From Roseivivax lentus (GTDB lineage Bacteria > Pseudomonadota > Alphaproteobacteria > Rhodobacterales > Rhodobacteraceae), in assembly GCF_900156805.1 (NCBI RefSeq), contig NZ_FTOQ01000003.1:62001-126000 (forward strand): 64,000 bases of DNA, written 5' to 3'. The notes beneath the pieces were generated by a model that was not told where the DNA came from, ran no database searches, and saw only the letters and a list, made by a program, of their open reading frames with translations. The position numbers and the translations under genes were made by a program. How positions within the stretch are numbered: position 1 is the first letter of the stretch; the number at the start of each line of letters is the position of its first letter. Positions 2,764-38,926 of the stretch are shown here, in pieces.

Positions 2764-3639
2764 TCAGAGCCCGTTCACCGGAACCTTCAGCATCGGCCGC
2801 CCGTCGCGGTCCTTGGGCACCTCGCCGGCGCGCATGTTCACCTGCAGCGAGGGAATGATGAGCTTGGGCATGTCGAGGGTCGCGTCGCGCTCGGTGCGGA
2901 ACTTCACGAATTCCTCCTTGGTCTTGCCGCCGCCCACATGGATGTTGTGGGCCTTTTCCTCGGCCACGGTCGTCTCCCAACGGATATCGCGCCCGTTGGG
3001 ACCGTAATCGTGGCACATGAAAAGCCGCGTGTCGTCGGGCAGGGCCAGCACCTTCTGGATCGAGTCGTACAGCGTCTCGGCATCGCCGCCGGGGAAATCC
3101 GCCCGCGCCGAGCCGCCATCGGGCATGAACAGCGTGTCGCCCACGAAGGCCGCATCGCCGATCACATGGGTCATGCAGGCGGGCGTGTGGCCCGGCGTGT
3201 AGATCGCACGCGCTTCCATGGTGCCGATCATGTAGGTGTCGCCATCCTCGAACAGCGCATCGAATTGCGACCCGTCGCGCTGGAACTCGGTGCCTTCGTT
3301 GAAGATCTTGCCGAACGTGTCCTGGACCACGAGGATCTTCGATCCGATGCCGATCTTCCCGCCGAGCTTGTCCTGGATATAGGGCGCGGCGGAGAGATGA
3401 TCGGCATGGACATGGGTCTCGATGATCCATTGCAGATCGCAGCCCAGCTCGCGCACCCGCGCGATCAGCGCGTCGGCATGTTCATAGGTGATCCGGCCCG
3501 CCGCGTAGTCGATATCCATCACCGAATCGATGATGGCGCAGGCATTGGAGGCGGGGTCGCGCACGATGTAGCTGATCGTGTTGGTGGCTTCGTCGAAAAA
3601 GCCCTCGACCTCCGGGTGGAGGGTGGTTGGATCCGTCAT
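2764..3639 (-). CDS. MBL-fold hydrolase, persulfide dioxygenase/Blh-like
   Basis: 291-residue metallo-beta-lactamase-fold protein. The metal motif THVHADH (His76, His78, Asp80, His81) is followed by YTPGHTPACMTHVIGD and the late MCHDY histidine, as in ETHE1-type persulfide dioxygenases and the Blh proteins of BigR-controlled sulfide operons. Probable role: detoxification of sulfide-derived persulfides or glutathione persulfide in the cytoplasm. It follows the DUF2892 gene by 24 bases and precedes SulP. The promoter operator upstream of the operon supports a sulfide link. The exact substrate is not shown by the sequence. Confidence 0.8.
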   Translation of the reverse strand: MTDPTTLHPEVEGFFDEATNTISYIVRDPASNACAIIDSVMDIDYAAGRITYEHADALIARVRELGCDLQWIIETHVHADHLSAAPYIQDKLGGKIGIGSKILVVQDTFGKIFNEGTEFQRDGSQFDALFEDGDTYMIGTMEARAIYTPGHTPACMTHVIGDAAFVGDTLFMPDGGSARADFPGGDAETLYDSIQKVLALPDDTRLFMCHDYGPNGRDIRWETTVAEEKAHNIHVGGGKTKEEFVKFRTERDATLDMPKLIIPSLQVNMRAGEVPKDRDGRPMLKVPVNGL

Positions 3640-27040: not shown

Positions 27041-28375
27041 ATGACCGACACGCTGACCCCCGGGATCGTCGCAGGCCGCCTGAGCGCGAAGGAGATCGCG
27101 GCGAATTTCGCCGATCTGCACGCCCCGCTCGATCCGCACGAGGCCGCCGTGGCCGCGGATCGCTGCTATTTCTGCTACGACGCGCCCTGCGTCACCGCCT
27201 GCCCGACCGATATCGACATCCCGCTCTTCATTCGTCAGATCGCGACCGGTCAGGCCGAGGCGGCGGGGCACACGATCTTCGAGCAGAACATTCTCGGCGG
27301 CATGTGCGCACGGGTCTGCCCGACCGAGGATCTCTGCGAAGGCGCCTGCGTGCGGGAAATGGCCGAGGGCAAACCGGTCGAGATCGGCCGTTTGCAGCGC
27401 TACGCGACCGACGCGGTGATGGCGCGCCAGGACCATCCGTTTTCCCGCGCGGCTGCGACCGGCAAGCGGATCGCGGTGGTCGGGGCGGGCCCGGCGGGGC
27501 TCTCCTGCGCGCATGGGCTTGCCCGGCGCGGTCACGACGTCGTCGTCTACGAGGCGAAGGCCAAGCCCGGCGGGCTCAACGAATTCGGCATCGCCGCCTA
27601 CAAGAGCACCGATGACTTCGCCCAGGCCGAGGTCGCCTGGCTGATGCAGATCGGCGGGATCGAGATGCGCCATGGCTGCGCGCTGGGGCGCGACGTCGCG
27701 CTGGCCGAGCTCGAGGCGGACTATGACGCGGTCTTCCTGGGGATTGGGCTCGGCGACGTGAACGCGCTCGACGTGGCCGGCGCCACGCGAGAGGGCGTTG
27801 GGGACGCGGTGGGCTTCATCGCCGATCTGCGCCAGGCCGCCGACCTGACCGCCTTGCCCGTGGGGCGCAATGTCGTGGTGATCGGCGGCGGCATGACCGC
27901 CATCGACGCCGCTGTGCAATCGAAGCTCCTCGGCGCCGAGACCGTGACCGTCGCCTATCGCCGCGGGCAGGACCGGATGGGCGCATCGCGCTACGAACAG
28001 GACCTCGCGACCTCGAAAGGAGTGCGGATCCTGTGCAATGTCTCGCCCGTGGCCATCCACGGCAATGGCGCGGCGGTGGAGATCGAGCTGGAATATACCC
28101 GGGAGGCCGGCACGGACCTGACCGGCACCGGCGAGACGATCCGGCTGCCCGCAGACCAGGTGTTCCGCGCCATCGGCCAGACGCTTGCTCCGCCGGACGG
28201 GATCGCGCGCGCCGGGACCAAGCTCAGCGTGTCGGGGCCCGGGCGGACCACGCGCGACAAGGTCTGGGCAGGCGGGGATTGCACGCCGGGCGACGACCTG
28301 ACGGTCGTCGCCGTGGCCGAGGGCCGCGACGCCGCTGCCGATATTCATGCCGTCCTCATGGGCGATGCGGGCTGA
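27041..28375 (+). CDS. preT: Dihydropyrimidine dehydrogenase subunit PreT
   Basis: 444 residues, homologous to E. coli PreT. N-terminal iron-sulfur motifs CYFCYDAPCVTACPTDIDIP (about residues 45-64) and GGMCARVCPTEDLCEGACVR, then an FAD/NAD(P) reductase fold with IAVVGAGPAGLSCAHGLARR and the second Rossmann motif VVVIGGGMTAIDAAVQSKLL. PreT takes electrons from NAD(P)H and passes them to PreA to reduce uracil or thymine to the dihydropyrimidine. 22 bases before preA; a RutR-like box lies upstream. Confidence 0.95.
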   Translation: MTDTLTPGIVAGRLSAKEIAANFADLHAPLDPHEAAVAADRCYFCYDAPCVTACPTDIDIPLFIRQIATGQAEAAGHTIFEQNILGGMCARVCPTEDLCEGACVREMAEGKPVEIGRLQRYATDAVMARQDHPFSRAAATGKRIAVVGAGPAGLSCAHGLARRGHDVVVYEAKAKPGGLNEFGIAAYKSTDDFAQAEVAWLMQIGGIEMRHGCALGRDVALAELEADYDAVFLGIGLGDVNALDVAGATREGVGDAVGFIADLRQAADLTALPVGRNVVVIGGGMTAIDAAVQSKLLGAETVTVAYRRGQDRMGASRYEQDLATSKGVRILCNVSPVAIHGNGAAVEIELEYTREAGTDLTGTGETIRLPADQVFRAIGQTLAPPDGIARAGTKLSVSGPGRTTRDKVWAGGDCTPGDDLTVVAVAEGRDAAADIHAVLMGDAG

Positions 28376-28397
28376 GCCCGGGAAGGAGACACCTGTC

Positions 28398-29705
28398 ATG
28401 GCCGATCTGACGACCAATTTCGTGGGCATCGAAAGCCCCAACCCCTTCTGGCTGGCCTCCGCGCCGCCGACCGACAAGGAATACAACGTGCGCCGTGCCT
28501 TCGAGGCGGGCTGGGGCGGGGTCGTCTGGAAGACGCTCGGCTCCGAGGGCCCGCCCGTCGTCAACGTGAACGGGCCGCGCTACGGGGTGGTCTACGGCGC
28601 CGATCGCCGCGTGCTCGGGCTCAACAATATCGAGCTGATCACCGATCGCCCGCTCGAGGTGAACCTCGAGGAAATGGCGCGGGTGAAGGCCGATTTTCCC
28701 GACCGGGCGCTGATCGCCTCGATCATGGTGCCCTGCGAGGAAGCCGCCTGGAAGGCGATCCTGCCGCGCGTGGCGGAAACCGGGGCCGACGGGATCGAGC
28801 TGAATTTCGGCTGCCCGCACGGCATGAGCGAGCGCGGCATGGGCTCTGCCGTGGGGCAGGTACCGGAATACATCGAAATGGTCACGCGCTGGTGCAAGAC
28901 CTATTACGACAAGCCGGTGATCGTGAAGCTGACGCCCAACATCACCGATATCCGCAAGCCCGCGGCGGCGGCGCGCAATGGCGGGGCGGACGCGGTGTCC
29001 CTGATCAACACGATCAACTCGATCACGTCCGTCGATCTCGACCGGATGTGCCCTGAGCCCACGATCGACGGCAAGGGCAGCCATGGCGGCTATTGCGGCC
29101 CGGCGGTCAAGCCCATCGCGCTGTCCATGGTGTCGGAAATCGCCCGCGCCGAGGCCACGCGCGGTTTGCCGATCTCGGGCATCGGCGGCGTGACGACCTG
29201 GCGCGACGCGGCCGAGTACATGGCGCTCGGCTGCGGCAACGTCCAGGTCTGCACGGCGGCCATGACCTACGGGTTTCGCATCGTCGAGGAGATGAAGCGC
29301 GGCCTCTCCGCCTGGATGGACGAGAAAGGCTACGCCCGGACGTCGGACTTCGTGGGCATGGCCGTGCCCAACGTGACCGACTGGCAGTACCTGAACCTCA
29401 ATTACGTCACCAAGGCCCGCATCGATCCCGAGGCCTGCATCCAGTGCGGTCGCTGCTACGCGGCCTGCGAAGACACGTCCCACCAGGCGATCGCGATGAA
29501 GCCCGGGCGGGTCTTCGAGGTGATCGACGCGGAATGCGTCGCCTGCAATCTCTGCGTCGACGTCTGCCCGGTCGAGAATTGCATCTCCATGGTCGAACTT
29601 GCGCCCGGGGAAACGGACCCGCGCACCGGCAAAGTAGTGGAAGAGGCTTATGCCAACTGGACGCAGCATCCGAACAATCCGATGGCGGTGAAGGCGGCCG
29701 AGTAG
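28398..29705 (+). CDS. preA: Dihydropyrimidine dehydrogenase subunit PreA
   Basis: 435 residues from ATG 28398 (AGGAGAC upstream). A dihydroorotate-dehydrogenase-like FMN TIM barrel (ESPNPFWLASAPPTDKEYNV at the start, LNFGCPHGMSERGMG) is followed by a C-terminal 2x4Fe-4S ferredoxin domain with CIQCGRCYAACEDTSHQAI and CVACNLCVDVCPVENCISM. It catalyses the first reductive step on uracil and thymine together with PreT. Hydrolysis of the product is handled by the genes at 31-34 kb. Confidence 0.96.
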   Translation: MADLTTNFVGIESPNPFWLASAPPTDKEYNVRRAFEAGWGGVVWKTLGSEGPPVVNVNGPRYGVVYGADRRVLGLNNIELITDRPLEVNLEEMARVKADFPDRALIASIMVPCEEAAWKAILPRVAETGADGIELNFGCPHGMSERGMGSAVGQVPEYIEMVTRWCKTYYDKPVIVKLTPNITDIRKPAAAARNGGADAVSLINTINSITSVDLDRMCPEPTIDGKGSHGGYCGPAVKPIALSMVSEIARAEATRGLPISGIGGVTTWRDAAEYMALGCGNVQVCTAAMTYGFRIVEEMKRGLSAWMDEKGYARTSDFVGMAVPNVTDWQYLNLNYVTKARIDPEACIQCGRCYAACEDTSHQAIAMKPGRVFEVIDAECVACNLCVDVCPVENCISMVELAPGETDPRTGKVVEEAYANWTQHPNNPMAVKAAE

Positions 29706-29814
29706 GTGCAGGCGGTTGTGCGCGGGTTGATCCGGCCAGGTCATGCGGAGGCATCTGTCCTTCGCATGATCGTTCTAAGCTGATGGCAGCAGATTGCGAT
29801 TTCCCGGTCGAAGA

Positions 29815-29863
29815 TTGAGATTATTAATTAATAATCTCAACACGATCTTAATTAAGATCGTGT
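29815..29863. repeat. Two abutting perfect palindromes centred on TTAATTAA
   Basis: Palindrome 1 (29815-29840, 26 bases): TTGAGATTATTAA and its exact mirror. Palindrome 2 (29840-29863, 24 bases): ACACGATCTTAA and its exact mirror. They share one base, and their centres are 24 bases apart. GC is 4/26 and 8/24 in a GC-rich genome. The 8-base word AGATTGCG lies on both sides (29791-29798 and 29865-29872). The pair sits between the convergent ends of preA and a small minus-strand gene: perhaps a bidirectional terminator or a protein-binding site. Confidence 0.85.
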
Positions 29864-29872
29864 AAGATTGCG

Positions 29873-30109
29873 TCAGACCAAGACGGTCAAGTGCCCGGAA
29901 TTGCAGATGACAATCAACTGCCCGCCGCATTCCACCAAGTGAAATCCGCGCATGCGCACCTCGCGCTTGAAGGCTTCCCGACCGATCATCCGATCGACGT
30001 CCCGGACCGAACGCCGCACGACGCCTCCTTTCGCAACGGCCTGGGCCCCGAACAATTGAGCCAGCCATTGCTCCCGGGTCGGAGGAGCTGTGACACGGTG
30101 CATCTGCAT
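29873..30109 (-). CDS. Small conserved-looking hypothetical protein
   Basis: 78 residues (start at 30109, or Met two codons later). TREQWLAQLFGAQAVAKGGV then VVRRSVRDVDRMIGREAFKR and a beta-rich C-terminus (GFHLVECGGQLIVICNSGHL). I recall similar short proteins in Rhodobacteraceae annotated as hypothetical or, doubtfully, phosphoribosylanthranilate isomerase; it is far too short for that enzyme. No signal peptide or membrane helix. It lies downstream of and codirectional with rutR (35 bases from its stop), and the AT-rich palindromes follow its stop by 10 bases. Function unknown. Confidence 0.6.
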   Translation of the reverse strand: MQMHRVTAPPTREQWLAQLFGAQAVAKGGVVRRSVRDVDRMIGREAFKREVRMRGFHLVECGGQLIVICNSGHLTVLV

Positions 30110-30144: not shown

Positions 30145-30795
30145 TTAAGCAGGCCGGGGTGTCAGCAGGCTGCGGAACATCTTTTCCACATGCGTCCGGG
30201 CGCGTTCCCACCCGGCGGAGGAATGCCCGACGAGCACGCCGACCTGCGCTTCAAAATCGGCGTAGTGCTGGGTCACCGCCCAAATGGTGAACAACAGATG
30301 CTCCGGATCGACGGCGGCGATCTCGCCTTGATCGATCCATTGCCGGATCAGCGCGCATTTTGCGTCGAACAGAGGCTTCAGCCCGGCCTCCAGATGCGGA
30401 CCCATCCGCGGCGCGCCCTGCAGGATTTCATTGGCGAAGAGCCGGCTTTCGCGCGGCATGCGGCGGCTCATCTCCAGCTTGGTCAGCACGTAGGACATGA
30501 TCGCCTCGAGCGGCTCATCCGCATCGTCCAGGGCCTCGAGCGGGGCCAGCCATTCCTGCATCAGCGTGTTCAGCAGCGCCACGTGAATGGCTTCCTTGCT
30601 GTCGAAATAATACAGCATGTTGGGCTTCGACATGGCCGCACAATCGGCGATTTCATCGAGCGTCGCTCCGCGGAACCCTTGCGCCGAGAACACCTCGAGC
30701 GCGGCTTCCAGAATGCGCTGGCGGTTGCGCTGTTGGATGCGGCTCAGCGGCTTTTCCGCGCCATGAGGGTCTTGCGGCGGGACAGCTGTGGCCAT
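30145..30795 (-). CDS. rutR: RutR-like TetR regulator of pyrimidine catabolism
   Basis: 216 residues from ATG 30795 (E. coli RutR has 212). TetR HTH: RQRILEAALEVFSAQGFRGA, then DEIADCAAMSKPNMLYYFDS, with a C-terminal RutR-type (YcdC) ligand domain (LFTIWAVTQHYADFEAQVGV). RutR is released from DNA by uracil (and thymine). It is divergent from the amidase operon, with a near-consensus RutR box in the shared 200-base region, and a second weaker box precedes preT. The sequence thus shows regulator, target sites and pathway genes together. Confidence 0.9.
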   Translation of the reverse strand: MATAVPPQDPHGAEKPLSRIQQRNRQRILEAALEVFSAQGFRGATLDEIADCAAMSKPNMLYYFDSKEAIHVALLNTLMQEWLAPLEALDDADEPLEAIMSYVLTKLEMSRRMPRESRLFANEILQGAPRMGPHLEAGLKPLFDAKCALIRQWIDQGEIAAVDPEHLLFTIWAVTQHYADFEAQVGVLVGHSSAGWERARTHVEKMFRSLLTPRPA

Positions 30796-30928
30796 GAACG
30801 GGATCCTGGTGATGCGTGAGTGGTCAGAGACTGGGCAGAGGCAGGTCAGTAAGTGCCCGGCACGACGTTCCGGGAAGAAGAGACGGGCGCCGCCGCTTGA
30901 CAGGGGGGCAGACGGTTGCAATCGTGAC

Positions 30929-38898: not shown

Positions 38899-38926
38899 CC
38901 GCCGCGCGGGACGTCCCGCGCGGCGG
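38899..38926 (+). terminator. Rho-independent terminator of the pyrimidine operon
   Basis: A 28-base perfect palindrome, CCGCCGCGCGGGAC and its mirror GTCCCGCGCGGCGG, followed by TCTTTC, begins 29 bases after the stop of the binding-protein gene. It marks the end of the operon. It is symmetric, so it could also act on the opposite strand. Confidence 0.9.

Follow-up and report, generated by a model that had tools for sequence, protein, structure and literature searches.

RESULTS

Two adjoining palindromes lie next to a small gene

The window analyzed here is a 64,000-nucleotide stretch of the Roseivivax lentus genome (contig NZ_FTOQ01000003.1) with a GC content of 67%. Two adjoining palindromes occupy the gap between a preA-like gene and a gene for a 76-amino-acid protein, as follows.

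28347-29705, + strand: convergent preA-like gene with a dihydroorotate-dehydrogenase fold and 4Fe-4S; its stop codon precedes hairpin 1 by 109 nt, and its start codon is uncertain
29815-29840: palindrome (hairpin 1), apex TTA-AT-TAA
29840-29863: palindrome (hairpin 2), apex TTA-AT-TAA, having base 29840 in common with hairpin 1
29873-30103, - strand: gene for a 76-amino-acid candidate partner protein (MHRVTAPPTREQW...), with 9 nt from its stop codon to hairpin 2
30145-30819, - strand: TetR regulator, RutR-like, located upstream of the small gene

Both palindromes are perfect, the first (TTGAGATTATTAATTAATAATCTCAA) over 26 bp with 4 G+C and the second (ACACGATCTTAATTAAGATCGTGT) over 24 bp with 8 G+C, and their centers are 24 bases apart, all as the first-pass annotation had reported. 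Its total of fifty bases becomes 49, since base 29840 is common to the two. From the composition of the window, 0.014 perfect palindromes of at least 24 bp and 0.004 of at least 26 bp would be expected. The pair has a strong predicted fold, consisting of two neighboring hairpins, on either strand (z of -5.6 and -5.8), and no Rfam model matched positions 29700 to 29900 at an E value of 5 or below. The convergent setting was correctly recognized at the outset, except that the nearer gene on that side is the 76-amino-acid gene and not the TetR/RutR-like gene at 30145; rutR, the small gene, and preA are grouped together in six species. A flanking direct repeat that had also been pointed out, AGATTGCG, is indeed present at 29791-29798 and 29865-29872, but such repeats occur at control level over 49 related elements (k = 8, 1 versus a control mean of 1.07; k = 7, 2 versus 3.06; k = 6, 7 versus 9.5). 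Elsewhere in the window, positions 38899-38926 hold a GC-rich perfect palindrome of 28 bp (CCGCCGCGCGGGACGTCCCGCGCGGCGG).

The pair belongs to a dispersed class of hairpins

A search of the genome and its relatives, as the first-pass annotation had proposed, found no second copy of the exact 26- and 24-bp dyads in their own genome. Unlike the exact dyads, their motif class recurs: its copies are scattered, frequently come in pairs, and are linked to the adjoining small gene. Among nine genomes of the genus, hairpin pairs were found at the orthologous locus and at others, with a constant TTA-NN-TAA apex and differing stems. A lack of conservation had been named beforehand as grounds for discounting the palindromes; the locus is conserved. 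In a sample of about 1.25 Mb, at least five further perfect pairs outside the core were present at 14 of 40 TTA-N1-4-TAA sites, compared to 0.1 to 1.8% of sites for the other eleven comparison cores listed.

A covariance model of single TTANNTAA hairpins (R1) was built on an alignment (A1) of 31 of 32 hairpins, one with a 3-nt center being left out. The model had matches in six of the nine genus genomes, where strand matches at an E value of 1 or below numbered 19 (G000), 21 (G002), 86 (G005), 9 (G006), 20 (G007), and 6 (G008), and none in G001, G003, and G004. With both-strand matches merged, a genus genome has roughly 3 to 23 loci. By a strict count, 34 of 59 loci contain two TTANNTAA hairpins and 25 contain one; several of the latter have, by eye, a second hairpin whose apex is different or broken. 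Loci repeating an identical hairpin were dropped from this count, which removed the distinct locus L132 besides true duplicates; L132 and L130, both in G005, have one identical hairpin. Spacings between centers fall into clusters of 24 to 28 and 41 to 51, with a few at 60 to 89. Helical phasing of the paired dyads was rejected because spacings of 24, 28, 42, and 48 have no common phase. Kissing of the two apices was also rejected, as they are complementary in some loci and, by eye, not in many others.

Stems covary and loops vary in length

Within the 31 aligned hairpins, 11 of 13 stem pairs vary on both sides. Cells with changes on both sides numbered 117, compared to 40.5 in shuffles, and the true structure performed better than every slid version. 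The set was partly chosen by sequence pattern, and the invariance of the TTA/TAA apex is thus built into it. G-U pairs are nearly absent from the stems. We considered a G-U bias as proof of RNA and rejected it, since the mismatches of 97 hairpins displayed no sense-strand preference for G-U: codirectional loci had one G-U, two A-C, and seven other mismatches on the sense strand, and convergent loci had five, five, and seven, respectively.

The hairpins beside small genes have loops of variable length, many of them nonpalindromic. Unpaired centers of 3 to 7 bases were observed in 33 of 79, and half of the even-length hairpins (20/40) are palindromic to the very center. Of the four stem positions on the 5' side of the loop, three or more are pyrimidines in all but one of the hairpins (78/79); a coin flip, the reference used here in place of a hairpin control, would give 31%. 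A run of four T's within 10 nt after the pair, our test for the U-tract of a canonical terminator, was found at just one locus of 49 for either strand, in keeping with the initial judgment that these are not ordinary terminators. When 20 loci were searched against Rfam, the gathering score was reached by tmRNA models and by a single chrB-a match (L243, positions 404 to 486), and by nothing else. Small-gene copies at L205, L206, L207, and L243 adjoin a tmRNA gene and have up to four hairpins.

Elements follow stop codons and persist at orthologous sites

The 59 loci comprise 26 in convergent gaps, 31 in codirectional gaps, one in a divergent gap (L127), and one inside a called gene (L098, a single hairpin that may be chance). 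Relative to a background of 171 convergent, 608 codirectional, and 177 divergent gaps, Fisher P values were 9e-6 for convergent and 2e-4 for divergent gaps. The gene calls came from a basic script relying on codon usage, which does not detect the small gene. Further loci follow genes recognized by eye as aroC, argF, and an Lrp-type regulator. Given the variable self-complementary stems, the variable loop length, the place after stop codons, and the avoidance of divergent gaps, a stem-loop at transcript ends is the form that these elements suggest.

Orthologous sites were common. A comparison of 58 loci placed 31 in ten groups, each spanning two to five species; nine of the ten are linked on both flanks, and the stems have changed between species. 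The remaining 27 loci have no orthologous partner, and 19 of these belong to G005. In that genome 19 of the 23 element loci examined are without a partner, reflecting either a lineage-specific expansion or sampling. At two loci (L154 in G007 and L170 in G002, about positions 2970 to 3050), a lone perfect TTANNTAA hairpin lies, by eye, between rpoB- and rpoC-like genes. Because a single hairpin separates rpoB and rpoC in two species, strong termination is unlikely at this site.

The small protein is a family of the Rhodobacteraceae

In a profile search, the 76-amino-acid family was present in 123 of 295 Rhodobacteraceae genomes, taken as one per genus. A class-wide sample gave matches in 4 of 385 genomes, three within the Rhodobacteraceae and one outsider (L300), whose small-gene match has no hairpins. 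Within the genus, six of nine genomes carry the protein at E values below 1e-12, and all other matches had E values of at least 0.03. Three of these six have a second, distant copy of the gene, which is likewise followed by at least two hairpins of different apex; at one such copy (L205) the stem of the second hairpin is 7 bp.

Searches of Pfam, PHROGs, and NCBIfam with 21 family members produced no credible match. The best, Calici_coat_C (E value of 0.005, 3 of 21 members), looks like chance, as do matches to capsid chains at E values of 0.06 and above. The protein has a basic conserved block, RR..RDV.R, and a model predicted from one sequence (pLDDT 75) places helices and strands in the order of a winged helix, in a fold that is not firm. 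A fold search gave weak matches that include winged-helix domains (best Z of 3.8) and no Foldseek match at an E value of 1e-3 or below; this search says nothing against families absent from the searched list. Since the basic block and the winged-helix-like order of elements suit such a role, the small protein is probably nucleic-acid binding, and on the same grounds we propose it as a candidate hairpin-binding 3'-end factor. One family member of about 70 amino acids, on a Tropicibacter oceani plasmid (L289, positions 2552 to 2761), is annotated as 'aspartate aminotransferase', probably a misannotation.

Hairpin pairs stand downstream of the small gene

We compared the surroundings of the small gene at 38 loci, of which nine belong to the genus, 28 to other genera (best-scoring profile matches only), and one to the T. 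oceani plasmid. A 39th locus with no motif found (L247) was left out. Within 200 nt after the small gene, a tandem pair was present at 33 of the 38 loci and at least one hairpin at 37. The 200 nt before the gene contained no tandem pair (0/38) and at least one hairpin at 4 loci, and a distal stretch 400 to 600 nt further on contained none (0/38) and at least one hairpin at 2. The tandem criterion misses L198, where the second hairpin overlaps the first. The small-gene hairpins of G006 are degraded, and none were found there (L200). Three loci seen later had no pair: of two in the Rhodobacteraceae, L298 has no clean stem and L299 one hairpin, and the outsider L300 has none. In other genera these hairpins differ in both stem and apex, the second often having another apex than the first. 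In at least 12 genomes, among the matches listed, a second apex type (type 2, pattern CGAAATCTTTCAAAGATTTCG) lies 28 to 132 nt downstream of where the small-protein match ends.

Elements and protein also co-occur across genomes. At E values up to 0.02, R1 matched 14 genomes, all of which are among the 123 protein carriers; seven of them had only one or two strand matches. At least three forward copies of the type 2 pattern (three or fewer mismatches) were found in 11 genomes, and all 11 carry the protein. Treating genomes as independent, although this is not the case, the R1 and type 2 overlap would have a chance probability of 7e-11; the genome lists were compared by eye, with phylogeny uncorrected. 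Any match to CGAAATCTTTCAAAGATTTCG was found in 51 genomes, 32 with the protein and 19 without, the latter having at most two matches per strand. Within the genus, the protein is present in all six element-bearing genomes and in none of the three without elements. Among 200-kb samples, two tandem pairs were found in G011 and none in G042, both protein carriers, and none in G021 and G004, which lack the protein; strict counts on such samples missed several known pairs, the G000 sample giving one hairpin and no pair.

DISCUSSION

The two palindromes appear to be a single member of a tandem stem-loop family that Rhodobacteraceae carry just past stop codons. Of the options listed by the first-pass annotation, paired RNA hairpins agree best with these data, with a dimer-binding site as a less likely alternative. 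We favor, with a probability of roughly 0.45, a bidirectional stem-loop pair that acts at transcript 3' ends together with a cognate small protein. Behind it stand the anatomy of the hairpins, their covariation, their 3'-end position, their conservation at orthologous sites, and the fact that they adjoin the protein gene and co-occur with it. RNA would be the acting form: the mRNA 3' end from either convergent gene would fold into two adjacent hairpins, and proteins of the 76-amino-acid family would recognize them. The resulting complex might set the position of the transcript end, or protect and process that end, and at the small protein's own gene it could provide autoregulation. Convergent genes require a structure that is symmetrical between the two strands, and such symmetry could also explain the missing G-U pairs. 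Two observations count against an RNA reading: there is no sign of the G-U tolerance that RNA would allow, and half of the even-length hairpins are palindromic to the center, a symmetry unnecessary for an RNA loop.

More tentatively, the arrangement could extend to a family-wide cis/trans system. Each genome would have one to four paralogous 76-amino-acid candidate hairpin-binding proteins, each tied to tandem stem-loops that would mark as well as control selected mRNA 3' ends on both strands, with apex types diverging along with the protein by lineage. How transcripts are ended and protected in GC-rich alphaproteobacteria is poorly known. The elements offer a candidate class, and the protein carried by 123 of the 295 genomes a candidate factor, for this process. 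No description of the elements or of the small protein was found in the open-licence literature, searched mostly by title and abstract opening. That the twin hairpins usually follow the gene of this unstudied 76-amino-acid protein suggests a hairpin-plus-protein partnership that has so far gone unrecognized.

The main rival is a DNA-bound dimer or cruciform binder. A winged-helix dimer would bind the duplex or cruciform dyads at gene ends, acting either as a roadblock or, between convergent genes, as an anchor for supercoiling. The near absence of G-U and the apices that are palindromic to the center would be at home in such a site, as would the modeled element order of the protein and its weak fold matches. 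We nevertheless consider it rather unlikely, because the stems vary yet stay complementary, which a dimer reading sequence does not need, and because unpaired centers are common, the spacings have no common helical phase, and divergent loci are only 1 of 59.

A stem-loop pair with its own protein must also be weighed against ordinary, if atypical, intrinsic terminators, that is, hairpin clusters without a U-tract, with the small gene ending in one by happenstance in most genera. The place after stop codons agrees with this. Moreover, RNA sequencing in 13 genomes is reported in PMC8355165 to have identified two-hairpin clusters, mostly without a stem-adjoining poly-U, as terminators; like the elements here, these are adjacent hairpins shortly past a stop codon that do not need a U-tract. 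Unlike the clusters as that report describes them, our elements have an apex conserved within a lineage, are low in copy number, and are tied to a specific protein gene. With so few copies (about 3 to 23 in a genus genome), they are not the general terminator. Since a pair also follows 33 of 38 small genes, presence or absence in the genus tracks the protein, and a lone copy lies between rpoB and rpoC, we find this explanation unlikely.

In layout, the partnership of hairpins and small protein comes closest to extragenic palindromes with a dedicated gene. REP, BIME, and REPIN elements with their RAYT genes, as presented in PMC3116915 and PMC3733652, are likewise short, dispersed, extragenic palindromes, often in doublets, that flank one co-occurring gene. 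Here, in contrast, the stem sequence is unconserved, the GTAG tag is absent from the palindrome base (0 of 69 hairpins), and the 76-amino-acid partner has no Pfam match to the Y1 transposase domain (PF01797). Nor was a RAYT found in the genus: the PF01797 search matched none of the nine genomes at an E value of 0.001 or below, and the identical search was positive in 5 of 14 control genomes. In a REPIN-like reading, an unknown enzyme would spread miniature elements of a mobile or selfish kind, and the small gene would be the parental copy. In its favor, extragenic palindrome doublets flank one special gene, 19 of the 27 partnerless sites are specific to G005, and L130 and L132 repeat one hairpin. 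We regard it as very improbable because neither the tag nor the transposase was found in the hairpins and genomes searched, target duplications are at chance level, alignment of one G005-only site with four relatives revealed no clean insertion, and old sites are kept. The same absence of Y1 transposase and of target duplications, along with the ten orthologous groups, weakens the early suggestion of a mobile-element remnant. Should the preferred reading of stem-loops with a cognate protein be true, it would be a palindrome-plus-gene partnership resembling REPIN-RAYT without a known transposase. The words Rhodobacter, Roseobacter, and Ruegeria are absent from the main text of PMC3733652. That paper's account of CGTC-tagged REPs, which are also alphaproteobacterial palindromes, commonly dimeric, and given there without a known dedicated transposase, assigns them the CGTC tag and a conserved family consensus. 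In the elements described here, by comparison, stems differ between loci, and CGTC or GACG lies near the base of 13 of 69 hairpins, which we estimate to be roughly what GC-rich flanks yield.
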